This document shows positions 23,089 to 53,937 of a stretch of 64,000 nt of DNA, piece after piece. The number at the start of each line of letters is the position of its first letter. The stretch's first letter is position 1. Made by a program: the position numbers and the translations under genes. The notes beneath the pieces are model-generated. The model saw nothing but the letters and a program-made list of their open reading frames with translations, was not told where the DNA came from and ran no database searches. Origin of the DNA: Pandoraea apista (GTDB taxonomy: Bacteria; Pseudomonadota; Gammaproteobacteria; Burkholderiales; Burkholderiaceae); NCBI RefSeq assembly GCF_001465595.2, contig NZ_CP013481.2, forward strand, positions 4,340,001 through 4,404,000, written 5' to 3'.

Positions 23089-23421
23089 TCAGAACGGCAT
23101 GCGCACCAACTCTTCCACCGCGCCTACCACCTTGTCGCGCGTGCGCATCAGCATGGAAAACGACAGGTCGGCCTGCGCGCTTGCCAGCATCGCACCGGTC
23201 AGATCGTTGCTCTTGCCCAGATCGACGGCCTTCATACGGTCGCCCGCGTCGCGCTGAGCGGCATCGACCCCGCGCAGCATCGCGCTGAAATCGGGCTTGC
23301 CCGAGGGGCCTGCCAGTGCAGGCTCGGCCTCGCGCACACCAGCGGCCATATTCAGTTCGCGTTGCGTCGCTTGCATGCGACGCATTTCAGTCATCAGCGA
23401 CTGTTCCATCGAGACAGGCAT
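23089..23421 (-). CDS. fliE: Flagellar hook-basal body protein FliE
   Basis: 110 residues. FliE joins the MS ring to the rod. The C-terminal part fits the family: DLTGAMLASAQADLSFSMLM then RTRDKVVGAVEELVRMPF. CGGAG precedes the ATG. It stands alone on the minus strand, divergent from fliM, whereas fliE normally begins the fliEFGHIJ operon; here fliF lies 30 kb away. Confidence 0.93.
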   Translation of the reverse strand: MPVSMEQSLMTEMRRMQATQRELNMAAGVREAEPALAGPSGKPDFSAMLRGVDAAQRDAGDRMKAVDLGKSNDLTGAMLASAQADLSFSMLMRTRDKVVGAVEELVRMPF

Positions 23422-23633
23422 TCGGATCTCCGTAACGTGTTTGAACGTGTGCCTGCCTAGCCCGCAGCGGCACCGGTATGACTCCGCACTTTACGCACAC
23501 CCGCCCCCCTCGTGATTGGGCAATCCCCCAAAGGGTACGGAGTTGAGTGATTCCCCATCAACAAGGGCGATCGACGCCTTTAGGATGCGAACTTCCCTCC
23601 GCGCAGAAGCGCTGCGAACCGTCTACTTATCAC
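23422..23633. promoter_or_regulatory. Divergent fliE / fliM promoter region
   Basis: 212 bases separating divergent fliE and fliM. It contains a short dyad TTGGG-caatcc-CCCAA (23517-23532) and the string CCCAAAG (23527-23533), also seen before flgB and fliF. No sigma54 -24/-12 element or sigma28 box is evident. Confidence 0.4.
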
Positions 23634-24488
23634 ATGAACACTATGCACGCGCCTATGCCCGGCGCGATCCGGGCACTCGATCCGTGCCGGCTCGGACAGC
23701 CGACGCAGCTCCTCGATCCTCTGACCGAGCGGCTGCGCTCGCGTCTCGATGTCCAATTGCCGCAGCACGTCCGTCATCGCCATGCTATGGCGTGGCGTGT
23801 CGCCGCCATGTCGGTGAGCGCCAACGCTCCGGACACGGCTGATGTCGTCGTGCAGCGTTTTCGGGTCGATGGTCATTGCATTGATGTGGCGCTGGACGCC
23901 GGCCTGCTGCGCGACGCCTTCCGTCTGCGCTACGACGCGGACGACTTCGTCGGGCCGCCCGCCAGACACGCGGCGCCGCCTGCGGCGACGTACGAACGCT
24001 TTGTCACCCGCTTTGCGAGGCAAATGCTCGACGCCCTGCGCCATGCCGTGTCGTCCGAGATGGCCCCGGCTCCGGCCGATGTCGAGACGATCGACCTCGA
24101 TCCGCGACTGACGCCGGCGTCGCTGTGGATCGGCGCGCGCATTGCGGATCGCGCCGGTAACACTCCGCTGGGCACCGTCACGTTCCGGCTCGCCGCAGAA
24201 GACGCACGCCGCTGGCTCACGATGCTGGGCCCCAACACGAGCGAACGCGCCGCACAACACACCCGGCCCGCGTGCGATATCGCCACGATTCCGGTACGTC
24301 TGAGCGCGCATTGGCTCGATATCGACCTGTCGCTCGGCGCCCTGCTCGACGCGCAACCGGGCGACGTACTGCCCGTGCGTTTCGTGCAACGCGCCCTCGT
24401 CTGCGTAGATAACGCCCCGCTGATGAGCGCCGACATCATCGAGCGCGACGCGCACTTGTGCCTCACGCACTTCCAAACCCTTGAGTAA
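23634..24488 (+). CDS. fliM: Flagellar motor switch protein FliM (lateral type)
   Basis: About 284 residues, shorter than primary FliM (about 330). C-ring protein between FliG and FliN. A C-terminal SpoA/FliMN_C-like segment is seen at PVRLSAHWLDIDLSLGALL to LPVRF. Identity rests on this and on the order fliM-N-P-Q-R. The N-terminus shows no LSQxEIDALL-type CheY-binding motif. ATG 23634 is chosen because codon composition becomes gene-like there; a GTG at 23547 with a good SD would add 29 atypical residues, so the start is uncertain. Confidence 0.8.
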   Translation: MNTMHAPMPGAIRALDPCRLGQPTQLLDPLTERLRSRLDVQLPQHVRHRHAMAWRVAAMSVSANAPDTADVVVQRFRVDGHCIDVALDAGLLRDAFRLRYDADDFVGPPARHAAPPAATYERFVTRFARQMLDALRHAVSSEMAPAPADVETIDLDPRLTPASLWIGARIADRAGNTPLGTVTFRLAAEDARRWLTMLGPNTSERAAQHTRPACDIATIPVRLSAHWLDIDLSLGALLDAQPGDVLPVRFVQRALVCVDNAPLMSADIIERDAHLCLTHFQTLE

Positions 24489-24489
24489 G

Positions 24490-24957
24490 ATGCCCATGAC
24501 CACGCAACTCCCCCACGATCCCGCCGGCCAGACGCCGGGCACGGCCGACACGCCCGACCTGCGCCCGGACGCGCACTTCGACGATCTGCCTGCGCTGGAC
24601 GATCTCTCGCAAGATCTCTCCGGCGACTGGCTCGGCAAGGTCGGCGACCCCACCACGGCGTCGGCCCCTGCGTCGCAAGCCGGCACGGCGCCAGTACCGC
24701 TGGCCATGCGTGAGACATTGCGCCGCGTGCCGGTGAAACTCACGCTCGAGGTCGGTGCGACGCGCCTCACGCTCGGTGAACTTGCCGCCCTGCGCGCCGA
24801 CGACGTGCTAAGCCTCGATCGCGCCGCAGGTGCCCCGCTCGCCGTGCTGGTCAACGGCGTGCCGGTGGGTCTCGCCGAGGTGGTGGCCTCCGGCACGCAA
24901 TACGGACTGAAGATCCTCACGCTCGATGCGCTCGAGCTGGATCGTCTGGCGCAATGA
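24490..24957 (+). CDS. fliN: Flagellar motor switch protein FliN
   Basis: 155 residues. The C-terminal 75 residues are a SpoA domain (RVPVKLTLEVGATRLTLGEL, then LAVLVNGVPVGLAEVVASG) as in FliN. The N-terminal half is acidic and flexible, including a DLSQDL segment. FliN forms the lower C-ring and binds FliH. A TTG at 24481 overlapping the fliM stop is an alternative start. The 3' end overlaps fliP by ATGA. Confidence 0.93.
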   Translation: MPMTTQLPHDPAGQTPGTADTPDLRPDAHFDDLPALDDLSQDLSGDWLGKVGDPTTASAPASQAGTAPVPLAMRETLRRVPVKLTLEVGATRLTLGELAALRADDVLSLDRAAGAPLAVLVNGVPVGLAEVVASGTQYGLKILTLDALELDRLAQ

Positions 24958-25775
24958 AAGCTGCGCTACAGTTCTTGCGCCAGCGGCTGGTGCGCACGCT
25001 CGGGTCGCACAGCTTTCCGTTGTGCGCCTCGGAGACCTTCGTTCTCATGATTCTGGCGATCGGCCTCGCCCTGTTCGCCACGGGCGCGCGCGCCGACGAG
25101 GCCAGCGACCTGATGCGCCTGCGCTCACAGGGCGGCACCACCGATTTCACCGTCAAGACCCAGTTGCTCATTCTGATGACGCTGCTGGGCCTGCTGCCCA
25201 TGATGCTGATGGTGATGACGACGTTCGTGCGTTTCGCCATCATTCTTGCGCTGCTGCGCCAGGCGCTCGGTCTTCAACAGGGGCTGCCCGCGCGTGTGCT
25301 GACCGGCATGGCGCTGTTACTCAGCCTGCTCGTCATGCGTCCGGTGGGCGAGGCGATCTGGACACAGGCAGTGGTGCCTTACGACGAAAACCGGATCACG
25401 CTGACTGAAGCGATCCGTGCCGGCGAAGCACCGCTCTCGCGCTTCATGCTCGCGCAGACCCGTCAGTCGTCGCTCGACCTGATGGCTCGCCTGACCGGCG
25501 AGACCGACGTTGCCGAGCCGCAAGCGCACAGTTTTCTGGTGAAAGCGTCGGCCTTCCTGCTGAGCGAACTCAAAACGGCGTTTCAAGTCGGCGCCATGCT
25601 CTTCGTGCCGTTTCTCGTGATCGATCTGGTCGTGGCCTCGGTGCTCATGGCGATGGGCATGATGATGCTCTCGCCTCTGGTCGTCTCCCTGCCGCTCAAG
25701 CTCTTGCTGTTCGTCCTGATCGACGGCTGGACGCTCACCGTCAGCACGTTGGTTTCCAGCGTGCAGGCCGTCTGA
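24954..25775 (+). CDS. fliP: Flagellar export gate protein FliP
   Basis: 273-residue core component of the flagellar type III export gate. Leader ending GARADEA, followed by TVKTQLLILMTLLGLLPMML, MTTFVRFAIILALLRQALG, SFLVKASAFLLSELKTAF and DLVVASVLMAMGMMMLSP, all hallmarks of FliP. It follows fliN with a 4-base overlap and no fliO between them. Confidence 0.97.
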   Translation: MKAALQFLRQRLVRTLGSHSFPLCASETFVLMILAIGLALFATGARADEASDLMRLRSQGGTTDFTVKTQLLILMTLLGLLPMMLMVMTTFVRFAIILALLRQALGLQQGLPARVLTGMALLLSLLVMRPVGEAIWTQAVVPYDENRITLTEAIRAGEAPLSRFMLAQTRQSSLDLMARLTGETDVAEPQAHSFLVKASAFLLSELKTAFQVGAMLFVPFLVIDLVVASVLMAMGMMMLSPLVVSLPLKLLLFVLIDGWTLTVSTLVSSVQAV

Positions 25776-25785
25776 GGAGAACGCC

Positions 25786-26058
25786 ATGCTGACCAGCGAT
25801 ATTGCCATCGACATCGGACTCGACGCCCTTCGGCTCGTCATCGTCATCGTGCTCGTGCTGATCGTGCCGAGCCTCGTGATGGGGCTGGTCGTGGCGCTGT
25901 TTCAGGCAGCCACACAGATCAACGAACAGACGCTGTCGTTCCTGCCGCGCCTGATCGTCACACTGATTACGCTCGGGCTCGCCGCCCCGTGGCTCGCGGG
26001 CATGCTCACCGATTTCGCCGCCGAGACCTTCGCCCGCGCGGCCACCCTCGCCGGTTAG
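25786..26058 (+). CDS. fliQ: Flagellar export gate protein FliQ
   Basis: 90 residues with two membrane helices. Contains LVPSLVMGLVVALFQAATQINEQTLSFLPRL in two pieces of the family signature. Works with FliP and FliR in the export channel. Begins ten bases after fliP. Confidence 0.97.
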   Translation: MLTSDIAIDIGLDALRLVIVIVLVLIVPSLVMGLVVALFQAATQINEQTLSFLPRLIVTLITLGLAAPWLAGMLTDFAAETFARAATLAG

Positions 26059-26095: not shown

Positions 26096-26911
26096 ATGCC
26101 GTTTCCTCTCCCCTTTGCCGCGTGGCCCGGCCTCGAAGGCTGGCTCGCCCAGTGGCCCGCCCAGCTCGTGATGCTGTGGTGGCCGTTCTGCCGTTTCATC
26201 GCGGCACTGAGCATGCTGCCGCTCGTTGGCGAAGGCGTGGTGCCCATGCGCTGGCGTGTGCTGATGTCGCTGGTGCTCAGCCTTGCGCTCTGGCCGGTGT
26301 TCGCGCAAAGCGGCGTGCCGTCGACCGATCCGTTCTCGCTCGCCGGCGTTGCACTCGCCGCAGAACAGGCGATCATCGGTGCGTGCCTTGGTCTGGCGTT
26401 CTTTATCGTGCGCAGCCTGCTCACGCTCGTGGGGTATTTGTGCGCGTCGCAAATGGGACTGGCCATGGCCGCCATGAACGACCCGATGAACGGTGAGGCC
26501 AGCGAGCCGGTGTCATTGCTCATGGTCTGTCTCGGCACGTTGCTCTTCTTCGTCGCCGATGCCCATCTGATCGCGGTGTCGATCGTGGCCCGCAGCTTCG
26601 AGGTCTGGCCCATCGGCGGCGGGTTGCCGCTCACCGATCTGGCCGGCCTGCTGCGTGCGCTTGGCTGGACACTGGCCGCCGCGATCACGCTGGCGTTGCC
26701 GGTCGTGCTCACGACCTTCATCGTGCAATTCGGTCTCGGGTTGCTCAATCGCGCCGCACCGGCCCTGAATCTGTTTTCGCTGGGCTTTGCCGTGACGACG
26801 CTCGTCGGGCTGGTCGTGCTCTCGGCAGTCGTCCCGGCGCTGCCGGCCCATTACCTGACGCTGACCGAACGAGTCCTCGACTCGCTCGGCCCCGTCGCAC
26901 GACCGAAATGA
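26096..26911 (+). CDS. fliR: Flagellar export gate protein FliR
   Basis: 271-residue multi-spanning export gate protein. Diagnostic parts include WWPFCRFIAALSMLPLVGEG near the N-terminus and VLTTFIVQFGLGLLNRAAP, NLFSLGF in the C-terminal half. Forms the 5:4:1 FliP-Q-R channel. Four bases separate it from flhB. Confidence 0.96.
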   Translation: MPFPLPFAAWPGLEGWLAQWPAQLVMLWWPFCRFIAALSMLPLVGEGVVPMRWRVLMSLVLSLALWPVFAQSGVPSTDPFSLAGVALAAEQAIIGACLGLAFFIVRSLLTLVGYLCASQMGLAMAAMNDPMNGEASEPVSLLMVCLGTLLFFVADAHLIAVSIVARSFEVWPIGGGLPLTDLAGLLRALGWTLAAAITLALPVVLTTFIVQFGLGLLNRAAPALNLFSLGFAVTTLVGLVVLSAVVPALPAHYLTLTERVLDSLGPVARPK

Positions 26912-26915: not shown

Positions 26916-28064
26916 ATGACAACCCAGGACACCGGCGACAAGTCAGAAGCCGCCTCCCATCAGAAGCTGCGCCGCGCCCGTGAGCAGGGGCAGGTGGCGC
27001 GCTCGCGCGACACCGCCACCGCGGTGGGCATCATGGCCAGTGTGGCCGTGCTCGCGATCTCGGCACCCGTGCAGCTCGACGAGTTTCGCTCGCTCTACGC
27101 AGCGGCATTCGCCGATCTCGCCGGGATCGGCTTCGACGACGCGTGGACGGCCCTGCTGCCCGCAGCGATGTGGCTGCTCGTCAAACTTGTCGCCCCCCTG
27201 GCGGCCATTCCGCTGTGCATCAGCGTGGCCGCCATGCTGCCCGGCGGTTACGTCTTCAGCACGACGCTGCTCAAACCGAAATGGCAACGTCTGTCGCCCA
27301 AGTCGAACCTTGGGCGGCTGGTTTCGATGAAGCACTATGCACAGGTCGGAACCGCCATTCTCAAGGTCGCACTGGTGGTGACGGTGCTGGTCCTTGCGCT
27401 GCGCACACGCTGGGACGACCTGCTCGCGTTGCAGGCGAGCGCGCCTGGCGAGGCGATCACCGTAGGGTTATGGCTATTGCGCGACGCCGTGCTCATGTTG
27501 GGCGGCGCGTTCGTTGCGTTCGCGCTGCTCGATCTTCCGTTGCAACGCTTCCTCTTCATGCGCGAGCAGCGCATGACCAAACAGGAAGTGAAGAACGAAC
27601 ACAAGCAGACCGAGGGGCGCCCCGAAGTGAAGCAACGCATTCGCCAGATCCAGCGTCGCATGGCCGAGCGCAGCTTGCGCCGCACGGTGCCCACGGCCGA
27701 CGTGGTGATCGTCAACCCGGCGCACTACGCCATTGCGCTCAAGTACGACACCGGACGTGCGCAAGCGCCGTATGTCGTGGCGCGCGGCCTCGACGAAATG
27801 GCCGGCGTGATGCGCCAGATCGCCCGCGAACACAAGATCGACGTGGTGAGCTCTCCACCGCTCGCACGTGCGCTGTACCACACAAGTCAGGTCAACCAGC
27901 AGATTCCCGGTGTCCTTTACGACGCGGTCGCGGTGATTCTGGCCTACGTCCTGCAACTGCGCGCCTGGCGTACCGGCGAGCGCGCGACCCAACCCGAGCG
28001 TCCGGATACCCCCGCCGTACCGGCAACGCTCTCCGATCCCCCTTCCACGCGACCGACTCCCTGA
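26916..28064 (+). CDS. flhB: Flagellar export switch protein FlhB, NPAH variant
   Basis: 382 residues. N-terminal membrane domain with four helices begins with the FlhB signature DKSEAASHQKLRRAREQGQV. The cytoplasmic domain has MTKQEVKNEHKQTEGRP before the autocleavage site. That site reads Asn267-Pro268-Ala269-His270 instead of the near-universal NPTH. FlhB controls the switch from hook to filament export through cleavage after this Asn. A Pro-rich tail follows. Confidence 0.96.
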   Translation: MTTQDTGDKSEAASHQKLRRAREQGQVARSRDTATAVGIMASVAVLAISAPVQLDEFRSLYAAAFADLAGIGFDDAWTALLPAAMWLLVKLVAPLAAIPLCISVAAMLPGGYVFSTTLLKPKWQRLSPKSNLGRLVSMKHYAQVGTAILKVALVVTVLVLALRTRWDDLLALQASAPGEAITVGLWLLRDAVLMLGGAFVAFALLDLPLQRFLFMREQRMTKQEVKNEHKQTEGRPEVKQRIRQIQRRMAERSLRRTVPTADVVIVNPAHYAIALKYDTGRAQAPYVVARGLDEMAGVMRQIAREHKIDVVSSPPLARALYHTSQVNQQIPGVLYDAVAVILAYVLQLRAWRTGERATQPERPDTPAVPATLSDPPSTRPTP

Positions 28065-28068: not shown

Positions 28069-30147
28069 ATGAGCCGACTACTGACCGATCTTCGGCGTCA
28101 CAAATTTCTGACGCCGCTCCTCGTCTTCGCCATCCTCGCGATGGTGATGCTGCCGTTGCCGCCGCTGCTGCTCGACACGCTCTTCACGTTCAACATCGTG
28201 CTCTCGATGGTCGTGATTCTGGTGAGCCTGTCGGTAAGGCGACCGCTCGACTTCTCCGTCTTCCCGACCGTCATTCTCGCCACGACGCTCATGCGTCTGA
28301 CGTTGAATGTTGCCTCGACACGCGTGGTGCTGCTCAACGGCAACGAAGGCACCCACGCCGCAGGGAGCGTGATCGAATCGTTCGGCAACGTGGTCATCGG
28401 CGGCAACTTCGTCGTGGGCCTCGTGGTGTTCGTGATCCTGATGATCATCAACTTCGTGGTGGTCACCAAGGGGGCGGAACGTATCTCCGAGGTCTCGGCA
28501 CGATTCACGCTCGACGCCCTGCCCGGCAAGCAGATGGCCATCGATGCCGATCTCAATGCCGGCCTCATCAATCAGGAAGCCGCACAGACTCGTCGGCGCG
28601 AGGTCGGCTCGGAAGCCGACTTCTACGGCGCGATGGACGGGGCTTCAAAATTCGTGCGTGGCGACGCCATTGCCAGCATCCTGATCCTGCTCATCAACCT
28701 GATTGGCGGCGCAGCCATCGGCGTGACGATGCACGACATGAGCGCGGGCGACGCGTTCCGCCAGTATTCGCTGCTGACCATCGGCGACGGGCTGGTCGCA
28801 CAGATTCCGGCACTGCTGCTCTCATCGGCCGCGGCCATCATCGTGACGCGCGTATCCGACGCAGGCGACTTCGAGAAGCAGGTCGGCAGCCAGTTGCTGG
28901 CTTCGCCATCGGTACTGTGGAGCGTGGCGGTGTTGATGTTCGTCCTCGCGGTGATTCCGGGCATGCCGACGCTGCCGTTTCTGGCGTTCGCGGCCGTCAT
29001 GGCATTCGTGGCATGGCGCGTGAGCCAGCGGCGTGCACCCGACGAAGCGGACAACACCGACGCCCTCGAAGCGGCACTGACGGCACACGAACCGCCCGCG
29101 CTCACATGGCACCAACTGCCATTCGTCTCGCCAGTGACAGTCAGTCTCGGCTACCAGATCGTGGGCCTCGTAGACAAACGCGAAGGGGCGCCACTCGTGC
29201 AACGGCTCTACGGCATGCGGCAAACGCTTTCGCAGGCGATGGGCTTCGTCGTGCCTGCGGTCAGGCTCGATACGGGCCTCGGACTCGGGGCGAGCGAATA
29301 TGCCATCGACATAGGCGGCGTGCGTGTCGCGAGCGCCACCTTGCCGCACGACCGGCTCATGGCGATTTCCGCGCCCGATTGCTACGGCGAACTCGACGGC
29401 ATGCCGGCCATCGATCCGTCATTCGGCATGCCCGTCGTGTGGATCGAGCCCGAGCGGCGCGCCCATGCGCTGGGGCTGGGTTATCAGATCGTCGACCCGG
29501 CGGGCGTGATCGCCACGCATGTTCAGGAAGCGATGAAAGCCCATCTGGCGGACTTGTTCACCTATCAGGATGTCACGTCGCTTGGCGAACGGCTGCGAGA
29601 ACTCTCGCCATCGCTTGCCGATGCGTTGGACAAGGCGCTCACGCATCAACAGCAACTGACAGTCATTCGTCTGCTGCTCGCGGAAGCTGTGTCGTTGCAG
29701 GATATCGACGTGCTGGCCACGGCGCTGGTCAACGCATCTACCGTGAGCAAAGAGCCGCTGATGCTGGCCGCCGAGGCCCGCAGCGCGCTCAAGCGACGGC
29801 TGGTTCATGGGCTGATCGGCGACGAGCCGACGCTGCATGTCTACCAGCTCACGACGGACCTGGAGAATTTGTTGCTGGGTGCCTATACGGCCGCGCAACA
29901 GGCGGGCAAGTCGACCGCCGATGCCTTCCCGCTCGACCCACAATTGCTCGAGCAGTTGCAATCGCACATGCCTCAGGCCCGCGAGAATATGAAGCAAACG
30001 GGCCGCGCGCCGATCCTGCTTGTCATGCCGCAGTTGCGTCCCCTACTCTCGCGCTACGCCCGGATGTTCGCGAGCGGTCTGCACGTACTCTCGTATAACG
30101 AGGTGCCGCAGACGAAAGAGATCGAAGTGGCGGGAACGTTGGGATAG
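28069..30147 (+). CDS. flhA: Flagellar export gate protein FlhA
   Basis: 692 residues, normal length. Eight N-terminal membrane helices with the FHIPEP region (LNVASTRVVLLNG, VVVTKGAERISEVSARFTLD, LPGKQMAIDADLNAG, GSEADFYGAMDGASKFVRGD) and a cytoplasmic domain that binds chaperone-substrate complexes. Last gene of fliMNPQR-flhBA, followed by a terminator. Confidence 0.98.
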   Translation: MSRLLTDLRRHKFLTPLLVFAILAMVMLPLPPLLLDTLFTFNIVLSMVVILVSLSVRRPLDFSVFPTVILATTLMRLTLNVASTRVVLLNGNEGTHAAGSVIESFGNVVIGGNFVVGLVVFVILMIINFVVVTKGAERISEVSARFTLDALPGKQMAIDADLNAGLINQEAAQTRRREVGSEADFYGAMDGASKFVRGDAIASILILLINLIGGAAIGVTMHDMSAGDAFRQYSLLTIGDGLVAQIPALLLSSAAAIIVTRVSDAGDFEKQVGSQLLASPSVLWSVAVLMFVLAVIPGMPTLPFLAFAAVMAFVAWRVSQRRAPDEADNTDALEAALTAHEPPALTWHQLPFVSPVTVSLGYQIVGLVDKREGAPLVQRLYGMRQTLSQAMGFVVPAVRLDTGLGLGASEYAIDIGGVRVASATLPHDRLMAISAPDCYGELDGMPAIDPSFGMPVVWIEPERRAHALGLGYQIVDPAGVIATHVQEAMKAHLADLFTYQDVTSLGERLRELSPSLADALDKALTHQQQLTVIRLLLAEAVSLQDIDVLATALVNASTVSKEPLMLAAEARSALKRRLVHGLIGDEPTLHVYQLTTDLENLLLGAYTAAQQAGKSTADAFPLDPQLLEQLQSHMPQARENMKQTGRAPILLVMPQLRPLLSRYARMFASGLHVLSYNEVPQTKEIEVAGTLG

Positions 30148-31533: not shown

Positions 31534-31559
31534 TGCTAGAGCTCCTTGTTCTGGTGAGC

Positions 31560-31567
31560 TAATCGGC
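31560..31567 (-). promoter_or_regulatory. Sigma28-like -10 element of flagellin gene
   Basis: On the minus strand GCCGATTA, seven of eight to the FliA -10 consensus GCCGATAA. Transcription from here would start about 20 bases before the flagellin ATG, leaving room for the AAGGAG site. The -35 partner (TGAG) is weak. Confidence 0.5.
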
Positions 31568-31694
31568 AGACCGGATTGCCTGCCTCACCGTGCTAAGGCG
31601 TCTCTTCGCGAGATTTGTTAATGCATTCCCGTGGAGATTTTTCCCATCTGCAAGCGCCCCCCGGCAGATCGCTCGTCGAACCCGCAACGCTCGC

Positions 31695-35239: not shown

Positions 35240-35569
35240 TCAGCGGCCCGCCATTTGCCGGACGATCGTGTCGGCAATGCCAAAGGCTCGGCGCGACGCG
35301 AGCGCTTGCGCGACCTGTGTATCGGCCCAGTCGTGCAGGCCGTCGGTCGAGCGGTCGCGCTTGCCCAGCCCGCCGGTACCGTCGCCGTCGTCGCGCAACG
35401 CCTGGGTGGCGCGGCGCATTTCGCCGAGTAGTCGCGCGATGAAGATCGCTTCGAACTGTTCGGCGGCCGCCTCGAGATTCGCGGCCGGAGCGTTCGGTGC
35501 CGCGCCCGCATTCTGCATAGGCGACCCGGGAGCGGAAATTAGCAAATGGTTGTGCGCTATCGGCGTCAT
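35240..35569 (-). CDS. flgJ: Flagellar rod-capping protein FlgJ, short form
   Basis: 109 residues. Carries only the FlgJ N-terminal domain (AAAEQFEAIFIARLLGEMRR near the middle) and lacks the C-terminal glucosaminidase that lets full-length FlgJ cut murein. The single-domain form is known in lateral and alphaproteobacterial systems. Some other lytic enzyme would be needed for rod passage. Eight bases after flgI. Confidence 0.9.
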   Translation of the reverse strand: MTPIAHNHLLISAPGSPMQNAGAAPNAPAANLEAAAEQFEAIFIARLLGEMRRATQALRDDGDGTGGLGKRDRSTDGLHDWADTQVAQALASRRAFGIADTIVRQMAGR

Positions 35570-37473: not shown

Positions 37474-37488
37474 CGTCATCTCCGTCCG

Positions 37489-41736: not shown

Positions 41737-41765
41737 TTCCCAAAGCACTTGCCCCGCTTTGGGAA
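41737..41765. promoter_or_regulatory. Perfect 10-bp dyad upstream of flgB
   Basis: TTCCCAAAGC-acttgcccc-GCTTTGGGAA, about 90 bases before the flgB start, in the only sizeable gap within the minus-strand flagellar block. No T run follows on the minus strand, so an operator is more likely than a terminator. Confidence 0.5.
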
Positions 41766-41895
41766 GATGACGTTGCCTGCGTAGGTGTCTTGTGAGTGAC
41801 TTCGTTGTTGCGCTACGCAAGTTGCAGGGCATGCCTACCGGCCTGATGACCTCATGACTTGATGACACCGGGACGGATTGAGGCGAATCGGAGAG

Positions 41896-46586: not shown

Positions 46587-46875
46587 CGTGCATCCTCAGA
46601 TAGCCGAGCGCGCCGTCGCGCCAATGCCCCAGTCCGGCCAGATGTCTGCGCGCCTCCGACGTGGCTCGCTGGCTGAGGGCATAGGCCTGCTCGTGCGCGA
46701 TACGCGCATCCGCCATAGCCTGTGCGAGCAAAGCCTCGCGGGCGTCGGGGGCAGGCGCATAGCGCCACGCCCGGCGAAACAGGGCGTCGGTCGCTTGCAG
46801 CAAGTCCCACTCGCGGGCGGCGGAATGCCGTCGCAAATCTCGCGCCAGCGCCCGGAAGGTCGCCACGTCAGCCAC
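46576..46875 (-). CDS. Small FliT/LafD-like protein
   Basis: 99 residues from GTG 46875, overlapping fliS by eight bases and fliK by eleven. All-helical, charged (VADVATFRALARDLRRHSAA, EALLAQAMADARIAHEQAYA). Position between fliS and fliK equals fliT or lafD, the FliD chaperone; sequence similarity is not obvious. The frame continues upstream antisense-like inside fliS and is rejected there. Confidence 0.65.
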   Translation of the reverse strand: MADVATFRALARDLRRHSAAREWDLLQATDALFRRAWRYAPAPDAREALLAQAMADARIAHEQAYALSQRATSEARRHLAGLGHWRDGALGYLRMHDDR

Positions 46876-47245
46876 GCCGCGTCTCCAGCGCCCGCCAACC
46901 CTGCGTGAGTTGTGCGACGACCGCCACGACCTCGTCGAGCTTGGCGAGGTCGAGTTCCACGCTGGCCTGTGCAATGCCACGCATGCAGAAGTCATACACC
47001 GCAGTGAGGGGCTGCGTGACCCCGGGCCCATCGGCCACATCGATATGCGATGCCAGCCCGTTGACCAGGTTCAGGCATTTGGTCACGCTGCGCAGGCGCG
47101 CATCGTGGCGTGAGTGTTCGATATGTCCACGCACGCGGGCCAACTCGTCGAGCAGCCCTTCCAGAAGGATCAGCATAAGTTGCAAGGGCGTTGCCCCTGC
47201 GATGCGCGCATCGAGGTCGGAGGTACGGTATTGCTGGTAAGTCAT
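46868..47245 (-). CDS. fliS: Flagellin export chaperone FliS
   Basis: 125 residues, starting MTYQQYRTSDLDARIAGATP then LQLMLILLEGLLDELARVR, standard FliS. Binds the C-terminal helix of flagellin in the cytoplasm. 35 bases after fliD. Confidence 0.96.
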   Translation of the reverse strand: MTYQQYRTSDLDARIAGATPLQLMLILLEGLLDELARVRGHIEHSRHDARLRSVTKCLNLVNGLASHIDVADGPGVTQPLTAVYDFCMRGIAQASVELDLAKLDEVVAVVAQLTQGWRALETRRG

Positions 47246-47280: not shown

Positions 47281-48705
47281 TCAATCGCCCGACTTGCGCG
47301 ATCCACGAAAGAGCGCGTCGACAAAACCGCGTGTCTCTTTCATTTGTTGCTGAACCTGCTCGGCGCGAGCCAGTTCATTGGTATAGCGCGCCACGAGCGC
47401 CAGAAAACGGGCTTTGAGCTTGTCTTCTTTGGCAGCGAGCCGCTGCGTGGTGACTTCGTCGGTGTCCGTGCGGTGCTTGAGTACGCCGGTGATCTCGTCG
47501 GTCCACTCGCGAATCCGCACGGCAAGACGCATGCCGGCCGGTTGTTTGTCCAGATCGATGCGGGTGTCGCGCTTCATCACATCCGCGCTCTCGCCGAACC
47601 ACTGGGTCAGCAGCGCCTTGTCGCCGGCATACGCGGCTTCAAAGCGCTTTTGATCGAACGTGACCGAACCGTCGGCATTTCGCTTCACGCCGAACTGGGT
47701 CGGGTCGAACGTCTTGCCGTCGATCGTCACGGGCCGCTCGAAATTGCGTTCGAGATCGCGCAACAGCGCGCGCACGCCGGCGTCGGCATAGAACGCTCCG
47801 GCCGGTTTGACGTCGCCCTTGTCGTCGCCGTCGGGCGACATCGATGCGCCCGGCGTGCCGGGGTCCATCAGGTCGCGCAGTTGCTTGCGCACCGCGTCGT
47901 ACGCTTGCACGAGGGCACGCATGTTGGTGGCCGTGCCGTCCATGTCGGGTGTGACCGACACGCGCGTAGTCTCGCCTGCGGCATTGGCCTTCTTCAGCGA
48001 GAGCGTTACGCCAGTGAAGAGCGTGACTTCATTGCTTGGGTAAAACTCGGGGGTTCCCTGGTTGCCGATCCGCACGATGGCGTTCTGCCCTTGTGCAAGC
48101 ACCGTCGCGTCGCTCCCCGCGAGAGCGTTGCCTGTCGACGCCTGCAAATCGAACTTCGCACCGGCACCGGATTTCGTCGCGCTCAGCAGCAAATATGGTG
48201 TCGGCTGCCCGGGCACATGCCGCAGGTCGGCGCGAACCACGTCCTTCAAATCCGGATTGGCGTTGATTCGTCTGGCAAGCTCGCGAACCCCCTCGGCCGT
48301 CGTCAAATCAAGGCCTGAGGTGTTCAACGCGATTGAGTCTGCGCGCCCGTTGATCTTCACCTTGCCGTCGGCGAGCGCCTCCACGTTCATGATCTGCACC
48401 TGATGAACGGCCGCGAGTTGCTCAACGTGCACGTCGAAATCGAGTTGTTGCGAGCCCTTGTCGAGCTTGACGGAGAACGCCGAATCGCTCGACTGCGTTG
48501 CCTTGTGCTGATGCAGGTCTGCGCTGTCGCCGATACGCCGGAGTTGCTTCTCGAAATTGCCGAGAACGTCCTTGAGCGTCTCCACACCCTTCTGACGAGC
48601 TTCAGCACCGGCCTTGTCCTTACCCAGACGACCGAACTCCGCTCCCATCTTTCTCTGGGCGATTTCGGCGGCCATATCGTCGATACGGTTTTTCACTTGC
48701 AGCAT
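47281..48705 (-). CDS. fliD: Filament cap protein FliD (LafB-like)
   Basis: 474 residues. FliD N-terminal helices (MLQVKNRIDDMAAEIAQRKM) with FEKQLRRIGD, a central DFDVHVEQLAAVHQVQIMNV hook-associated segment, FTGVTLSLKKANAAGETTRV and C-terminal VARYTNELARAEQVQQQMKE. Caps the filament and folds flagellin. It overlaps fliJ by 13 bases. Direct fusion of fliJ to fliD is a lateral-locus trait. Confidence 0.95.
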   Translation of the reverse strand: MLQVKNRIDDMAAEIAQRKMGAEFGRLGKDKAGAEARQKGVETLKDVLGNFEKQLRRIGDSADLHQHKATQSSDSAFSVKLDKGSQQLDFDVHVEQLAAVHQVQIMNVEALADGKVKINGRADSIALNTSGLDLTTAEGVRELARRINANPDLKDVVRADLRHVPGQPTPYLLLSATKSGAGAKFDLQASTGNALAGSDATVLAQGQNAIVRIGNQGTPEFYPSNEVTLFTGVTLSLKKANAAGETTRVSVTPDMDGTATNMRALVQAYDAVRKQLRDLMDPGTPGASMSPDGDDKGDVKPAGAFYADAGVRALLRDLERNFERPVTIDGKTFDPTQFGVKRNADGSVTFDQKRFEAAYAGDKALLTQWFGESADVMKRDTRIDLDKQPAGMRLAVRIREWTDEITGVLKHRTDTDEVTTQRLAAKEDKLKARFLALVARYTNELARAEQVQQQMKETRGFVDALFRGSRKSGD

Positions 48706-49283
48706 GGCGAAGCTCCTGGTTCGGGTGATGTACGGGACGCGAAATGCGTTTTCCCAACCCAAGCGACCGCGGGGCGCACTTTGTCAACGCGCGCGCCCGG
48801 GGCGATTTCCTCAATGTCGTGCGTATCTGCACGCTGCTCGCTTGCCGGTGCGCTTCTTTGCCAGACGGCTAACGCCTGAGCGACTTGTTCCTGCCCTTCC
48901 TGCCGGAGTCGGACCTGCTTCGCTGCCGCCTCGTGACGGGCAGCCAGCGTTGCCACGCCCTCGCGCCGGCGCTGCGCGTCGCGCACGGCCTGTGCCGAGA
49001 CCGCCTGCCAGCGTGCCAACTGCGCCATCGGCGCCTGCTGCGTCTCGATCATCTGCACGAGCGTGCATTTGTAGTCGGCGCGATTCTGAAAACTGTAGGC
49101 ATTCGCGCGTGCGCCACCGATCGCCACTGCGCGATACAGCCGGGTAAGCTGCTCGACGTTTCGCGCGAGCCGCCCATGCTGTTCGGCCAAGCGCCGGCCG
49201 TCGTGTTGCGCGGCCTCGAGTTCACGATCCCGGATCGAGAGCAACGCCTGAAGCGCGCGCGGTGTTCGCGGGGTCATCGGCAT
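48693..49283 (-). CDS. fliJ: Flagellar export protein FliJ, C-terminally extended
   Basis: 196 residues versus about 147 in E. coli. Coiled-coil body (ALQALLSIRDRELEAAQHDG, LFRAYA-like LTRLYRAVAIGGARANAYSF, QAVRDAQRRREGVATLAARH). The last 45 residues (from about SAPASEQRADTHDIEEIAPG) are an unusual Pro/Val-rich tail. Couples the FliI ATPase to FlhA. Start MPMTPRTP overlaps fliI by ten bases. Confidence 0.88.
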   Translation of the reverse strand: MPMTPRTPRALQALLSIRDRELEAAQHDGRRLAEQHGRLARNVEQLTRLYRAVAIGGARANAYSFQNRADYKCTLVQMIETQQAPMAQLARWQAVSAQAVRDAQRRREGVATLAARHEAAAKQVRLRQEGQEQVAQALAVWQRSAPASEQRADTHDIEEIAPGARVDKVRPAVAWVGKTHFASRTSPEPGASPCCK

Positions 49284-50554
49284 AACGCCTCCAGCCGTTC
49301 GCACAGGCGATGCGGTGTGTTCGCCTCGCCATCGCGCTGACGCAGAAAGTCGAGCATGAGCGGATGCCGGGAGACGGCACGGTCGGTCTCGGCGTGAGCG
49401 CCCGGCACATAGGCACCGAGCGGCATCAACTCGCGAATCTGTTGATAGGCATGCCACTGCGCTTTGAACGCGCGCGCGGCATTGGCGTGCCGTGCGCCCA
49501 CCGCCTGCGTCATGCACCGGCTCACCGATGCCCCGACGTCGATGGCGGGATAGTGTCCGGCGTCGGCCAGTTCGCGCGACAGCACGATGTGACCATCAAG
49601 GACGGCGCGGGCGGTGTCCACCACCGGGTCTTGCAGGTCGTCGCCTTCGGCCAGCACGGTGTAGATCGCGCTGAGGCTGCCCGTTCCCGCGCCATTCCCC
49701 GCGCACTCGACTAAACGGGGCAACCGGGCGAACACCGACACCGGATAACCGCGTGCGGCAGGCGCTTCACCAAGCGAGAGCGCCACCTCGCGGCATGCCA
49801 TGGCATAGCGCGTCAGCGAATCGACGAGCAACAGCACGTCGTGCCCTGCGTCGCGAAAATGGGCGGCAACGGCGTGACACAACTCCGTGGCCTTTATCCG
49901 TTGCGCGGGCGGCGCATCGGCCGGTGCGGCCACCACAACGGCCTTCGCAAGCCCGGCCTGACCCAGCGTTGCGTTAATAAATTCACCGACCTCGCGGCCG
50001 CGTTCACCGATCATGCCGACCACCACAATCTGGGCATCGGTATGCCGGGTCATCATGCCCAGCAACACACTCTTGCCCACGCCGCTACCGGCGAACAACC
50101 CCACGCGTTGCCCCTTGCCCAGACTGAGCAACCCGTCGATGGCACGCACGCCCACGGGCAGTGGCTCGGCGATCGCACGACGCGCCAGCGGTGCTGGCGG
50201 CGAACATCGGGTATCGAGCAGCGCATCGCCACGCAACGCCCCTTTCCCGTCGAGCGGCTGACCGAAGGCGTCGATCACGCGGCCGAGCCACGACAGCCCG
50301 ATACGCAGCGCAGGTGTCGCGGTGCCGGGCAGCACCCGGGCGCCGGGCACGATATCCGCCACCGACGCGTAAGTCAGTAGCTGCAACGCGCCATTGGAGA
50401 ACCCGACCACCTCGGCCTCCGTCCACCGGCCTGCGGCGGTCTCGACACGGCAGGCTTGCCCGAGCGAAAAACGTTGCCCACGCGCCTCGAGCACGGCGCC
50501 CGTGGCCCGCGTGACGAACGCCATCGGCGTTGCGAGTGCGATCTCGTCGTTCAT
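49274..50554 (-). CDS. fliI: Flagellum-specific ATPase FliI
   Basis: 426 residues. Walker A AGSGVGKS (155-162), GERGREVGEF, Walker B LLLVDSLTRYA with Asp245, and EVALSLGEAPAARGYP. Hexameric F1-like ATPase unfolding export substrates. Start MNDEIALATP overlaps the fliH stop by one base; a further 37 upstream codons are inside fliH and rejected. Confidence 0.97.
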   Translation of the reverse strand: MNDEIALATPMAFVTRATGAVLEARGQRFSLGQACRVETAAGRWTEAEVVGFSNGALQLLTYASVADIVPGARVLPGTATPALRIGLSWLGRVIDAFGQPLDGKGALRGDALLDTRCSPPAPLARRAIAEPLPVGVRAIDGLLSLGKGQRVGLFAGSGVGKSVLLGMMTRHTDAQIVVVGMIGERGREVGEFINATLGQAGLAKAVVVAAPADAPPAQRIKATELCHAVAAHFRDAGHDVLLLVDSLTRYAMACREVALSLGEAPAARGYPVSVFARLPRLVECAGNGAGTGSLSAIYTVLAEGDDLQDPVVDTARAVLDGHIVLSRELADAGHYPAIDVGASVSRCMTQAVGARHANAARAFKAQWHAYQQIRELMPLGAYVPGAHAETDRAVSRHPLMLDFLRQRDGEANTPHRLCERLEALCR

Positions 50555-51279
50555 CACAATGTCTCCGAGGTCGCGGCCGGCGCGCAGGCGGCGCGCGTTG
50601 CTTCCCCCCATTCGCTCAGATGCCGACGTGCGATCGCTTGTGCTGCCGCTTCGCGGCCTTCGCACCCCGCGTCGTACCAGAGGCCGTCGACGTCAACGCG
50701 GCAATCTCCGCGAACCAACGACGGATCGGCTTCGATGCGCCATCCCGGGCGCGGGCCATCCGCGTGGGCCGATGCGCTGCCGACACGCGCGCACAGCGCG
50801 CGGGCATCGGCGGGGCTGACATAGACGGTCACGGCATCGTCGCGCCCTCCCAACTGCGCGAGCAGCCGCGCAACAATGCTCTCGATGTCGGCAGGTGCCG
50901 TGTGCAACTCGCGCTGCACGATGGCGCGCACCGCGCGCGACGCCACGTCGCTCAACACGTCGACGGCCGCGGCCGCGAGCCGGGAATGCACTTGTTCTCG
51001 GGCCGCATGCAGTGCCTCGAGCGGCAGCTTCAGCGCCTCGAGTTCGTCGCGCAAGTGCTCGGCATGAGATGTCTGCAAGCGTGCTTCGGCCGCTTGCTCG
51101 CCGTGCACACGTCCGGCATCGAAGGCTTCCTGCCAGACAACCTCGCGTGTGTTCGCTGCGCCATCTGCCATGCCTTGCGCATAGGCCTGTGCACGCAAGG
51201 TGTCGAGATCCGGATGAACCGGCAGCCAGCCGCGCTGGGCCGCAATGTCGGACTTCGTGCCAAACCGGTGCGGCTTCAT
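50554..51279 (-). CDS. fliH: Flagellar export ATPase regulator FliH
   Basis: 241 residues. Long helical middle (VVWQEAFDAGRVHGEQAAEA) and C-terminal VAIRV-type domain (SDVASRAVRAIVQRELHTAP, then DDAVTVYVSPADARAL). Inhibits FliI and docks it to FliN. GAGG before the ATG. Confidence 0.92.
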   Translation of the reverse strand: MKPHRFGTKSDIAAQRGWLPVHPDLDTLRAQAYAQGMADGAANTREVVWQEAFDAGRVHGEQAAEARLQTSHAEHLRDELEALKLPLEALHAAREQVHSRLAAAAVDVLSDVASRAVRAIVQRELHTAPADIESIVARLLAQLGGRDDAVTVYVSPADARALCARVGSASAHADGPRPGWRIEADPSLVRGDCRVDVDGLWYDAGCEGREAAAQAIARRHLSEWGEATRAACAPAATSETL

Positions 51280-52295
51280 TCGAGTACCTCACCGTCGGCG
51301 AGACGCAGAACCAGATCGGCCTCGCGCGCTCGCGTGCGCAGCATGACCATGATTTCGTCGCGCGCGGCGGCAACACGCGCCGCCGACATGGCGCCCAGAC
51401 GCTGCATCGCCTGCGCGAGGGCATCTTCCTGAAGACGCGACATGCGTTCGCGCACAACTTGCCGCATACGCGTGTCGGTTCCCTTGAGCGCGACCGCCCA
51501 CAATTCGGTCGGCACCTCGGCGACCGCCAGATCGATGACTTCCGGCGCCTGATAGGCCAGGATGTCGAAGCCGTACATACTTGCCTCGACGGACTCCGCC
51601 AGCGACGCGTCGTGCGCGCGCAGTACGTCCATGAGTCGTTTCTGATCGTCAGGCACATGACCCATGATCTGCGCCGCAAGTCGTGTGCCGGGCACATCGG
51701 TGCTCTCGGCGGACAAGCCCGCAAGACAACGATCGGCAATCACTTCGAGGTCAGCCAGCAGCTCGCGGTCCACGCGTTTGAGTTGCGCGGTCTCCAGTAG
51801 CAGCGCTTCCTGCTGCGACTCTGGCAGTGCGCGAAGCAATTGGCCGCCGAGATCGGCGGGCAGATAGGCCAGCAGCAACGCCTGCATACGGTGATGTTCG
51901 CGCGAAAGCACGTCGGCGAGTCTCGTCACGCTGACCCATTGGAGACGCGCCAGCTTGGGACGAATCCGATCGCCATAAATGCCGTCGAGCACATTGCTGG
52001 CAATGCCTTCTCCGAGCGCCGCAGCCAGTGAGCGCTCCAGATACGCACGCGGGGCGGCATTCGCGCCGCCATGCTGCACGCTGGCTTCGAGGAATTGATC
52101 GACGATGGCATGCACGTCGTGCTTCTTCACGCCGCCGGCACGCGACATGGCGTGCGCCACGCGCAGAAGCTCGTTGGGCGCGAGCTGCGCCATGACCCCG
52201 GCGGCAGCCTTCTCGCCCATGCAAAGCAACAGGACGGCGGCGCGGTCAACGCCGTTGATCTCGGTCAGGGTGGAACTATCAGCGGGCAGAGGCAT
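51276..52295 (-). CDS. fliG: Flagellar motor switch protein FliG, EHHR variant
   Basis: 339 residues, normal length. N-terminal FliF-binding domain (GVDRAAVLLLCMGEKAAAGV), middle and C-terminal domains with charged torque helix (DDQKRLMDVLRAHDASLAES, AVALKGTDTRMRQVVRERMS). At 133-136 it has EHHR where the middle-domain motif is EHPQ. That surface binds FliM in primary motors. Overlaps fliF by 17 bases. Confidence 0.95.
   Translation of the reverse strand: MPLPADSSTLTEINGVDRAAVLLLCMGEKAAAGVMAQLAPNELLRVAHAMSRAGGVKKHDVHAIVDQFLEASVQHGGANAAPRAYLERSLAAALGEGIASNVLDGIYGDRIRPKLARLQWVSVTRLADVLSREHHRMQALLLAYLPADLGGQLLRALPESQQEALLLETAQLKRVDRELLADLEVIADRCLAGLSAESTDVPGTRLAAQIMGHVPDDQKRLMDVLRAHDASLAESVEASMYGFDILAYQAPEVIDLAVAEVPTELWAVALKGTDTRMRQVVRERMSRLQEDALAQAMQRLGAMSAARVAAARDEIMVMLRTRAREADLVLRLADGEVLE
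51888..51899 (-). other. Variant FliG middle-domain motif (EHHR)
   Basis: Codons 133-136 of fliG. In context REHHRMQALLLAYLPADLG aligns column by column with EHPQTIALILAYL of typical FliG, so the Pro-Gln pair is replaced by His-Arg. Confidence 0.75.
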
Positions 52296-53937
52296 GCGAA
52301 CCGATCCATTGTTTGATGATCTGGGCGACGCGCTCGGGTTCGCCGTCGGCCAGTGTTGTCAGGCGTCCGAGCTTCGTGTCGAGCGAGGCGTCCGAGGCGG
52401 GCGGCATGTCGTTGGCAAACGCCGGCAGCGCCGCTTGCTGCGCCGCACGCTCGGCGTCGCGGCGGCTGCGCTCGATCGCGTCGGTCTCGGCAACGCGTGC
52501 CGCGTCCTTTCGCCGGCGCGCACGCCGGGCCAGTGCCCCCCAGGTGATCAACGCAATCAACAGCGCCGCAGCGACAGCCATGGCGACATATCGCCGTTGT
52601 GCGCCGGTGAGCCCGAAGCCCGCAGCAGCGGTGGCCGGCGAGTCGAAGGTCATTGCACCATCGGTCGCCACGAACGGCATCGCACTCACGACCAGCGTGT
52701 CGCCACGGTCGACTTGAATACCCGCGCTCGCGCGCAAGGCACGCTCCAACTCGGCGATCGTGTCGGCGGTCCAGCCATTGCCACCGGGCGCAGCCTGAGA
52801 ATCGACCATGACGGCCACGTGCATCTGACGCACGCGTGGGCGGTGACGCTTGGTCTGTGTGATCGAGCGGTCGTAAGCGAACTGTCGCGTGGACGAAGTG
52901 GTGCGCATCGCACCGCCCTCGCCGCCGAGTACCGGCGCCGCGTCGACCGGCCGGTTCGCCATTGCCCCCGGGACCCCGCCCACAACCGCGTCGTCGTCGC
53001 GCGCCTGCCGCACGGCTTCCTGCATGACACGGGGATCGGCGCCGAGCGCCTCGGTAGTGTTCGACACCAGATCTTCGTCCAGATCGATGCTTACGCTCGC
53101 ACGGTAGCGATCGGCGCCGAGAATGCCGTCGAGCAGCCCCCGCACGTTGCGAAGCGCTTCGTCACGCGAACGGATGCGCGCTTCGGCGTTACCGTATGTG
53201 GCGTCGTCCAGATCGAGATTCGCGCTCAGCGGTGTGCCGTGCTGATCGAGCACGGAAACGTTCTCCGCCGCCAGCCCGTTCACACTGCCGGCCACGAGCT
53301 TGACGATGGCGCTCACCTGCTGCGGCGCGAGCTTTTGCCCCGGTCGCACCGAGATCAGCACCGACGCGCTGGCCGACGCCCGGGTATGGGTGACGAATGA
53401 CGACTGCGGCGCAAGCGCAATGTGCACACGTACGGCATCTACCGCATCGATCGACATGATCGTGCGCGCCAGCTCTCCCTCCAGACCACGGCGAAAACGC
53501 ACGTCCTGCACGAACTGGCGCACGCCCAGACGCTCATCGCGATCGACCAGTTCCAGTCCCGGCGGCAACTCCGGCGTCACGCCCTTCGCGGCCAGCGCGA
53601 GACGTGCACGGCCAAGCCGGTCGTGCGGCACGAGGATCGCGCCGGTGTCCGGATGCATGCGAAACGGGATCTGCTCCGCTTCGAGTACGCCGGTGGCCTG
53701 TGCGATCGGAATGCGCTGGTTCTGGCCGAAAAGCGGCGCGTAGCCCGTGTCGTGCGAGTACCAGGCCAGCGTGGCGGCGGTAATCGCGCCGGCCGCGACC
53801 AAAAGCGGCAACGCGCTGCGCAGTTGCCCGGCAAAACCCGAAGGCTGCACACGCCACTTCAGCCATTGCTCACGCAATCGCGTGCCAGCGCTGCCAAGCG
53901 CCCGAAAGATATTGTCGATTCCCATATGTCGATTCAC
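52279..53937 (-). CDS. fliF: Flagellar MS-ring protein FliF
   Basis: 552 residues. TM1 at about 40-58 (LPLLVAAGAITAATLAWYSH), the YscJ/FliF ring-building domains (GQNQRIPIAQATGVLEAEQI, LARTIMSIDAVDAVRVHIAL), TM2 near 450-470 and a C-terminal FliG-binding tail (PERVAQIIKQWIGSHA). First gene of a 12-kb operon. Start is GTG 53937 or ATG 53925; neither has an ideal SD. Confidence 0.95.
   Translation of the reverse strand: MNRHMGIDNIFRALGSAGTRLREQWLKWRVQPSGFAGQLRSALPLLVAAGAITAATLAWYSHDTGYAPLFGQNQRIPIAQATGVLEAEQIPFRMHPDTGAILVPHDRLGRARLALAAKGVTPELPPGLELVDRDERLGVRQFVQDVRFRRGLEGELARTIMSIDAVDAVRVHIALAPQSSFVTHTRASASASVLISVRPGQKLAPQQVSAIVKLVAGSVNGLAAENVSVLDQHGTPLSANLDLDDATYGNAEARIRSRDEALRNVRGLLDGILGADRYRASVSIDLDEDLVSNTTEALGADPRVMQEAVRQARDDDAVVGGVPGAMANRPVDAAPVLGGEGGAMRTTSSTRQFAYDRSITQTKRHRPRVRQMHVAVMVDSQAAPGGNGWTADTIAELERALRASAGIQVDRGDTLVVSAMPFVATDGAMTFDSPATAAAGFGLTGAQRRYVAMAVAAALLIALITWGALARRARRRKDAARVAETDAIERSRRDAERAAQQAALPAFANDMPPASDASLDTKLGRLTTLADGEPERVAQIIKQWIGSHASAR

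Follow-up and report, generated by a model that had tools for sequence, protein, structure and literature searches.

A second, lateral-type flagellar system of reduced gene content in Pandoraea apista

Organization of the locus

The window analyzed here is a stretch of 64,000 nucleotides of the Pandoraea apista genome (bases 4,340,001–4,404,000 of contig 1, or C1, in an assembly of two contigs and 5.57 Mb). At positions 23089–53937 it carries 35 flagellar genes, from fliE to fliF, which an initial annotation made from the sequence had described as a second, self-contained motor system of the lateral kind. We read the locus as the second, lateral (Laf/Flag-2-lineage) flagellum of Pandoraea, with a probability of about 0.9, and the system it encodes is a genuine lateral one that is reduced relative to those known.

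The gene fliE stands alone on the minus strand and is followed on the plus strand by fliM-N-P-Q-R-flhB-flhA. All other genes form a single minus-strand run of 23.6 kb, consisting of fliF-G-H-I-J-D-S-(T)-K, a sigma-28 gene, motA, motB, flgM-N, flgB to flgL, lafW and lafA. Intergenic gaps of more than 100 bp occur at fliE/fliM (212 bp), flhA/lafA (150 bp, convergent), lafA/lafW (161 bp) and flgB/flgN (210 bp); all remaining neighbors are at most 64 bp apart or overlap. The gene ahpF lies about 300 bp from fliF.

Hidden Markov model (HMM) searches recognized FliM, N, P, Q and R, FlhB, FlhA, flagellin, FlgL, the FlgJ rod-binding domain, FlgN, FlgM, FliK, FliE, MotB, MotA, sigma-28, FliS, FliD, FliJ (weakly, E 0.0004), FliG, FliH, FlgD, FlgB, FlgK, FlgH, FliF, FliI and FlgE. 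Numerous scores fall under the NCBI equivalog cut-offs (FlhA 755 versus 772, FliP 215.8 versus 217.5, FlgL 38.7 versus 127), as expected because these are divergent family members. For FlgC, FlgF, FlgG and FlgI the assignment comes from BLAST against the genome's own primary flagellar proteins, and the FliT-like open reading frame (ORF), which has no family match in the profile scans, is named from its position. The genes named in the initial annotation and their order were thus confirmed; fliE (23089–23421, minus strand), within the same coordinates, was absent from its list. The features are as follows.

23089–23421, minus: fliE (lateral), alone, divergent from fliM; TIGR00205, 56.4 bits against a cut-off of 30
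23422–23633, no strand: divergent fliE/fliM upstream region with the element RATGGGRAA at 23559 (minus)
23634–24488, plus: fliM (lateral), only the FliMN_C domain recognized; start moved from 23547
24481–24957, plus: fliN (lateral); TIGR02480, 64 bits, under cut-off
24954–25775, plus: fliP (lateral); TIGR01103, 215.8 bits, slightly under cut-off
25786–26058, plus: fliQ (lateral); TIGR01402, slightly under cut-off
26096–26911, plus: fliR (lateral); TIGR01400, under cut-off
26916–28064, plus: flhB (lateral); TIGR00328, 327 bits, under cut-off
28069–30147, plus: flhA (lateral); TIGR01398, 755 bits, slightly under cut-off; FlhA tree
30298–31533, minus: lafA, lateral flagellin; Flagellin_N and Flagellin_C above Pfam cut-offs, top NCBIfam model LafA, under cut-off
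31534–31694, minus: lafA upstream region, element GATGGGAAAAATC at 31636–31648
31695–32855, minus: X, most likely a divergent lafW, putative hook-associated protein; hhalign 98.5%, and 87% with the LafW set chosen independently of X
32903–33811, minus: flgL (lateral); TIGR02550, under cut-off
33841–35175, minus: flgK (lateral); TIGR02492, 144.6 bits, under cut-off
35240–35569, minus: flgJ, rod-binding domain only; PF10135
35578–36738, minus: flgI, P ring; 43% identity with own primary FlgI
36751–37479, minus: flgH, L ring; HMM
37489–38277, minus: flgG; 47% identity with own primary FlgG
38316–39047, minus: flgF; 39% identity with own primary FlgF
39052–40149, minus: flgE, hook; HMM
40146–40850, minus: flgD; PF03963
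40847–41263, minus: flgC; 39% identity with own primary FlgC
41260–41685, minus: flgB, start revised; TIGR01396
41896–42351, minus: flgN; PF05130
42348–42647, minus: flgM, anti-sigma-28; TIGR03824 above cut-off
42666–43559, minus: motB/lafU; HMM, stator Asp conserved with own primary
43556–44428, minus: motA/lafT; TIGR03818, 273 bits, under cut-off
44425–45330, minus: sigma-28 (fliA/lafS); TIGR02479 above cut-off
45327–46586, minus: fliK/lafE; PF02120
46576–46884, minus: fliT/lafD-like, start assumed; position, without family match
46868–47245, minus: fliS/lafC; TIGR00208 above cut-off
47281–48705, minus: fliD/lafB; HMM under cut-offs, start from gene-spacing check
48693–49283, minus: fliJ; TIGR02473, weak, start from gene-spacing check
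49274–50554, minus: fliI; HMM and FliI tree, start from gene-spacing check
50554–51279, minus: fliH; PF02108
51276–52295, minus: fliG; three FliG domains
52279–53925, minus: fliF, start probably 53925; TIGR00206 above cut-off
53926–54230, minus: fliF upstream region, element TTAATGGGAAAACG at about 54132; terminator-like hairpin beside ahpF

Relationship to lateral systems and to the primary flagellum

In an FlhA tree of 79 rows, built by a quick method with supports from the Shimodaira–Hasegawa-like approximate likelihood-ratio test (SH-aLRT) and with gammaproteobacterial primary rows thinned beforehand, the window's FlhA falls within a 34-row clade (SH-aLRT 100). This clade contains E. coli Flag-2 and Vibrio, Aeromonas, Pseudomonas and enterobacterial rows, which we take as lateral or Flag-2; inside it the window belongs to a 21-row betaproteobacterial lateral subclade (support 100). 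The genome's own primary FlhA groups with Burkholderiales primaries (20 rows, support 91). Among named relatives, Pandoraea sequences are the nearest by both FlhA and X. The FliI tree (25 rows, the genome's own being the sole betaproteobacterial primary) puts the window in an 18-row lateral clade (bootstrap 100, SH-aLRT 99). Both trees, which the initial annotation had proposed as a check, therefore set the locus in the lateral clade and apart from the primary betaproteobacterial flagella, the latter being a single row for FliI. Among the records used, NZ_AP026896.1, a 4.94-Mb Aeromonas caviae entry with an flhA gene, is probably a chromosome despite its label as a plasmid.

Genes that mark lateral systems are present in the window, namely its own sigma-28, MotA and MotB (lafS, lafT, lafU). 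Protein X has no Pfam or NCBIfam match. When an alignment of X from the window and 14 of its 17 relatives was compared with four proteins from the lafW position (E. coli Flag-2, the second lateral locus of Pandoraea genome G021, Ralstonia and G087), hhalign gave a probability of 98.5 (E 3.6e-15, 260 columns). Two of these four had been chosen by their BLAST match to X, and with the two chosen by position or by E. coli LafW the probability is 87.0 (E 4e-6, 138 columns). X follows flgL, the position held by lafW in E. coli. The sequence comparison makes X most likely a divergent LafW, and the idea that it has no relatives outside the genus was rejected by this match. Primary loci have no counterpart of lafW, which makes it a further marker of lateral systems. 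LafW has been termed a putative hook-associated protein (PMC6993521).

A separate primary set was found in the genome, as the initial annotation had expected, with flhA at C1:112438, fliA at 116597, motAB at 95938–97815 and fliC at about 149.7 kb. Counterparts of the lateral genes at 95–150 kb comprise flhB, flhA, fliA, flgB to flgK, flgM, fliC, fliS, fliF, G, H and I, fliP, Q and R, motA and motB. A primary FliM is also present, as are flhD and flhC (by Pfam, with residues 1–56 as the FlhD query), and the ORFs lying between motB and flhB look on visual inspection like che and mcp genes. This set was checked gene by gene only in part and we do not claim that it is complete. Together with the trees it upholds the view that the window encodes a second motor system and not the primary flagellum.

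A third FlhA-type gene, of the SctV type, lies at C1:4590484 with FliP, Q, R, FlhB and FliI-type genes; BLAST gave no further counterparts of the lateral proteins at this locus near 4,590 kb. The surrounding region (C1:4575001–4610000), with SctV, N, R, S, T and U-type genes, is a non-flagellar type III secretion locus. For the window locus itself such an identity was ruled out, rod, hook and flagellin genes being present.

Missing helper genes and activator

The initial annotation had reported that fliO, fliL, flgA and lafK are missing from the locus, and gene overlaps, genome-wide searches and a motif scan all agree. The fliN/fliP and fliA/fliK overlaps are 4 bp each, so there is no room for fliO or fliL at these places. 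The genome has a single FlgA (C1:118492), a single FliL (134800) and a single FliM-core domain (134100), all of them primary. No sigma-54-activator motif occurs in window ORFs of at least 60 aa, and no FleQ domain was found in the genome.

The motif is present in 12/12 gammaproteobacterial loci inside the lateral clade and in one of two Endozoicomonas loci just outside it, and was found in none of nine other betaproteobacterial lateral loci (mostly partial stretches) and none of nine window-type Pandoraea loci. Between sigma-28 and fliK, all four other betaproteobacterial loci compared (G422, the second locus of G021, G087 and G384) have an ORF of 156–162 aa; that of G422, the only one scanned, is FliL by Pfam. 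FlgA occurs in all three betaproteobacterial lateral stretches that cover its site, with 30–32% identity to E. coli; the same BLAST gave one 27% match beside ahpF in the Pandoraea genome G029, probably by chance. Loss of LafK thus looks common to the betaproteobacteria examined, and, in the small number of loci compared, loss of FliL and FlgA looks confined to the Pandoraea type. BLAST at 1e-3 failed to detect the FliL ORFs recognized from position and by Pfam, and the absence of FliL reported for Burkholderia dolosa (PMC5773237) may likewise be a matter of search sensitivity.

FlgA is the chaperone of the P ring, and the "rod chaperoning" of the initial annotation is to be corrected to P-ring chaperoning. 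Judging from these gene inventories, FlgA and FliL may be borrowed from the primary flagellum. "Self-contained" is too strong a term for a locus that has its own gate, filament, sigma-28 and stator, while FlgA and FliL genes occur only in the primary locus.

The motor and its switch

The primary FliM begins with LSQEEVDALL, which we take to be the CheY-binding peptide. A scan with a wide pattern over whole ORFs gave no N-terminal match in any of 27 lateral-type FliMs (19 from betaproteobacteria, Pandoraea and E. coli, and eight gammaproteobacterial; the FliM of six other gammaproteobacterial loci was not recovered), and the sole internal match is at residue 246 of the L031 FliM. The lateral FliM also has no recognizable FliM core domain, the only one in the genome being primary. 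Because the peptide and the core domain are both missing, the lateral motor probably turns without chemotactic switching, and the initial annotation's suggestion that chemotaxis is imported from elsewhere probably does not hold. The lateral FliG retains ALKG and lacks the acidic pair that the primary FliG has in the next helix, where other lateral FliGs in the alignment differ too. Lateral MotB retains the stator Asp and MotA both prolines, as aligned with the primary proteins. The functional roles of these FliG, MotB and MotA residues are assumed here from general knowledge. Lateral motors have been described as non-chemotactic, with drifting FliG and FliM (PMC8042155).

An upstream element and the regulator

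Alignments from eight genomes contain conserved blocks upstream of fliF, upstream of lafA and between fliE and fliM, in which the word RATGGGRAA was first spotted by eye. It occurs three times in the 64-kb window, only upstream of fliE/fliM, lafA and fliF, and not at all in 90 kb of the own primary region. The number of copies alone is not unusual (the expectation for the window is about 1.1, and 3/60 Markov simulations had at least three); placement and conservation are what is notable. In a subsequent test for the best 10-mer common to the three profiles this element was recovered with a score of 35.07, against maxima of 30.2 in 60 column shuffles and 32.6 in 60 three-column block shuffles, and 29.3–30.3 for the three reversed controls. 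Strict matches are found in seven (fliE/fliM), eight (lafA) and eight (fliF) of nine carriers. Even with one mismatch allowed, G016 lacks the element at lafA and fliF; at fliE/fliM the element has one mismatch in G016 and G021. One or two intragenic copies occur in six of eight other carriers, four single copies in nine other betaproteobacterial lateral loci (between fliE and fliM in Chromobacterium, between flgA and flgN in the second locus of G021, in lafW of G087 and beyond lafA in G384), and four copies in 31 primary regions (318 kb). In the genome itself a one-mismatch search gave 20 matches against none for the backwards control; CTA/TAG in the control is expected to be rare, and nothing was drawn from this. 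We regard RATGGGRAA as a lead, a candidate lateral-specific switch site.

A held-out matrix scan did not find the element in the flgN–flgB gap (p 0.7; window sequence, 300 shuffles). That gap (41686–41895) has a conserved inverted repeat, CCCAAAG...TTTGGGAAA, and TTTTCGATAG next to the start; a word similar to that of the gap lies upstream of fliF in some carriers.

The lateral promoters could instead be driven by the primary master regulator FlhDC and not by a separate regulator, a possibility that we consider real, if somewhat doubtful. The genome has flhDC, a LafK-type gene and a FleQ domain are lacking as described above, and the FlhDC half-site presumably resembles AATGG..AAA. The B. dolosa authors suggest that polar regulators may serve both systems (PMC5773237). 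The promoters themselves argue otherwise: words common with the conserved primary flhB and flgA/flgB promoters score 28.8–31.9, within or close to the range reached by shuffles in the test on the three lateral regions, only the word shared by lafA contains RATGGGRAA, and the element matrix at the primary promoters does not rise above shuffles (p 0.33 and 0.35). The idea that RATGGGRAA is the primary FlhDC site found no support in these comparisons.

Selection and integrity

The ratios of nonsynonymous to synonymous substitution rates (dN/dS; Nei–Gojobori, window against four of the ten other carriers, G012, G009, G004 and G007) are at most 0.56 for all lateral genes. Low values were obtained for motA (0.03–0.07), fliG (0.04–0.08), flhA (0.03–0.07) and fliM (0.07–0.13), and the highest for fliK (0.34–0.53) and flgM (0.26–0.56); those of fliJ, fliT and flgB are rough owing to overlapping frames. 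All 35 genes have at least 60% of the window ORF length in each of the seven other carriers covered over the whole locus; in G016, 30 of the 35 are on a first contig and the rest on another. The lateral hardware is kept by purifying selection.

Distribution and history in Pandoraea

Lateral FlhA (at least 89% identity) occurs in 11 of 32 Pandoraea genomes, and X in the same 11. In a sample of the order, seven of 399 genomes, our own included, have lateral FlhA at E 1e-200 or better. On a tree built for 31 genomes from five proteins encoded in the primary flagellar region, a substitute for a species tree, the carrier label has to change three times, compared with 9.3 times on average after shuffling, and none of 500 shuffles was as low.

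In nine of the 11 carriers fliF lies beside ahpF, in one stretch in the window, G012, G009, G013, G004, G007, G010 and G021 and on another contig in G016; this view of the border excludes G024 and G026, which are broken assemblies. The window's transporter gene is at the other border in seven of these nine, and other genes are found there in G007 and G010. In the non-carrier G015, 77 bp separate the border transporter gene from ahpF. G029 groups with two carriers; its left flank agrees with theirs as far as roughly the last 13 bp of fliE and is then joined directly to the region beside ahpF, and on this short match the junction is likely a deletion scar. The non-carriers G020, G031 and G018 have about 12–14 kb of genes outside the reference set between ahpF and the transporter, and in G011, G027 and G028 no transporter match was found within 17 kb. 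The ahpF/transporter interval may be an integration hot spot. The simplest history would be a single gain of the lateral locus beside ahpF in one Pandoraea lineage, followed by losses in some branches.

Further observations were made in these genomes. An ORF with the sigma-54-activator motif lies beside ahpF in G031, G011, G018 and G027. G010 (contig C5) has about 10 kb within the lateral locus between flhA and lafA, where six scanned ORFs comprise parts of a TRAP (tripartite ATP-independent periplasmic) transporter, a short-chain dehydrogenase, transketolase halves and one ORF without a match. G021 has a second lateral locus (C1:1,026,906–1,112,000) with flgA, a FliL-like ORF, lafW and its own flagellin; its FlhA is 61% identical to the window's and groups with Methyloversatilis and Oxalobacteraceae (support 89), and by its gene content G021 would have three flagellar systems in one cell.

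Discussion

The analyses above show the gene content, kinship, distribution, selection and absence of helper genes of the locus. The lateral system has its own export gate, rod, ring and hook, filament, cap, sigma-28/FlgM pair and MotAB stator. The switch complex has lost its CheY input, and the motor most likely rotates without chemotactic switching, presumably in surface (swarming-type) use. The P-ring chaperone FlgA and FliL, if needed, and an activator replacing LafK would have to be supplied from outside the locus. In a stricter form, which we put forward tentatively and think rather unlikely, the lateral flagellum would be an obligate dependent that uses primary FlgA and FliL, works without chemotactic input and is turned on as a whole by a non-LafK regulator acting at RATGGGRAA upstream of fliE/fliM, fliF and lafA.

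Several points weigh against this explanation. FliI puts the Pandoraea branch, on a long stem, outside E. coli Flag-2 and the other betaproteobacteria (98/96), in disagreement with FlhA, so the two trees differ as to the exact origin of the Pandoraea locus. FlgA or FliL may be dispensable here. In G016, fliF is in two overlapping frames (C20, 2215–3899), either by sequencing or assembly error or by decay, and two of the three elements are missing. No lateral flagella could be observed in the polar flagellin mutant of B. dolosa (PMC5773237), and loci of this kind may therefore fail to build filaments that can be seen.

That mutant would also fit a locus now serving chiefly as a secretion or adhesion device and not for propulsion, as would the altered switch regions of FliM and FliG, and non-motility roles have been proposed for Flag-2 (PMC6993521). 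We consider this unlikely, however, in view of the low dN/dS of motA, motB and fliG, the aligned stator Asp and prolines, and the presence of flagellin with cap and chaperone genes. A silent relic on its way to loss is more improbable still: 21 of 32 genomes are without the locus, G029 has its likely scar and G016 its defects, yet full gene sets in the seven whole-locus carriers, low dN/dS in the four compared, and strict conservation of the upstream elements in seven or eight of nine carriers per site argue against decay. That the locus is a duplicated primary betaproteobacterial flagellum is hardly credible, for although most lateral proteins have recognizable primary counterparts in the same genome, FlhA is 43% identical to its own primary and up to 65% to FlhAs of the lateral clade from other genera, the locus contains a LafW homologue, and the FlhA and FliI trees reject it.

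Self-containment might be expected of a lateral flagellum. This naturally reduced version points to parts that can possibly be dropped or shared (FlgA, FliL, LafK, CheY input) while purifying selection maintains the motor genes. Because a single genus includes carriers, a near-empty site and a likely deletion scar, the function of the second flagellum could be tested cleanly. Pandoraea species infect cystic fibrosis lungs as opportunists, and a second flagellin would be a second possible immune target.

Comparison with known systems

Betaproteobacterial lateral systems are already known in Burkholderia (PMC5773237), and PMC8042155 cites an earlier transfer to a betaproteobacterium. No description of a lateral flagellar locus in Pandoraea was found in the open-access literature searched, and the available text of PMC9355198 mentions polar flagella only. 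We class the locus as a betaproteobacterial-branch lateral system and not as narrow-sense enterobacterial Flag-2 because it is without the lafK sigma-54-type activator; lafK has been used as a Flag-2 marker (PMC6993521).

The E. coli Flag-2 locus shares with the window the fliMNPQR-flhBA block, a fliE side divergent from fliM, lafW after flgL, and the order fliD-S-(T)-K ... sigma28-motA-motB. It differs in having a lafK-position gene (frameshifted in the strain compared), flgA, a FliL gene and a lafZ-position regulator, none of which was found in the window; for lafZ this means no BLAST match at E 1e-3 to the E. coli lafZ-position gene, no profile search having been made. The window in turn has the fliFGHIJ block at the far end of its 23.6-kb same-strand run.

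The lafA locus of B. dolosa, with a LafA relative in B. thailandensis, is likewise a betaproteobacterial lateral system beside a polar one, reported without FliO and FliL (PMC5773237), and the word lafK does not appear in the main text of that article. By its description, lafA adjoins fliM there, whereas in the window lafA follows lafW and is convergent with flhA. Also among the closest systems are the lateral loci of the same FlhA clade, those of Chromobacterium, Massilia, Methyloversatilis, Ralstonia and Rugamonas, the second locus of G021, G422, G087 and G384. In the mostly partial stretches compared they too are without the sigma-54-activator motif, and they differ from the window in having kept the FliL-like ORF (4/4) and, where its site is covered, FlgA (3/3).

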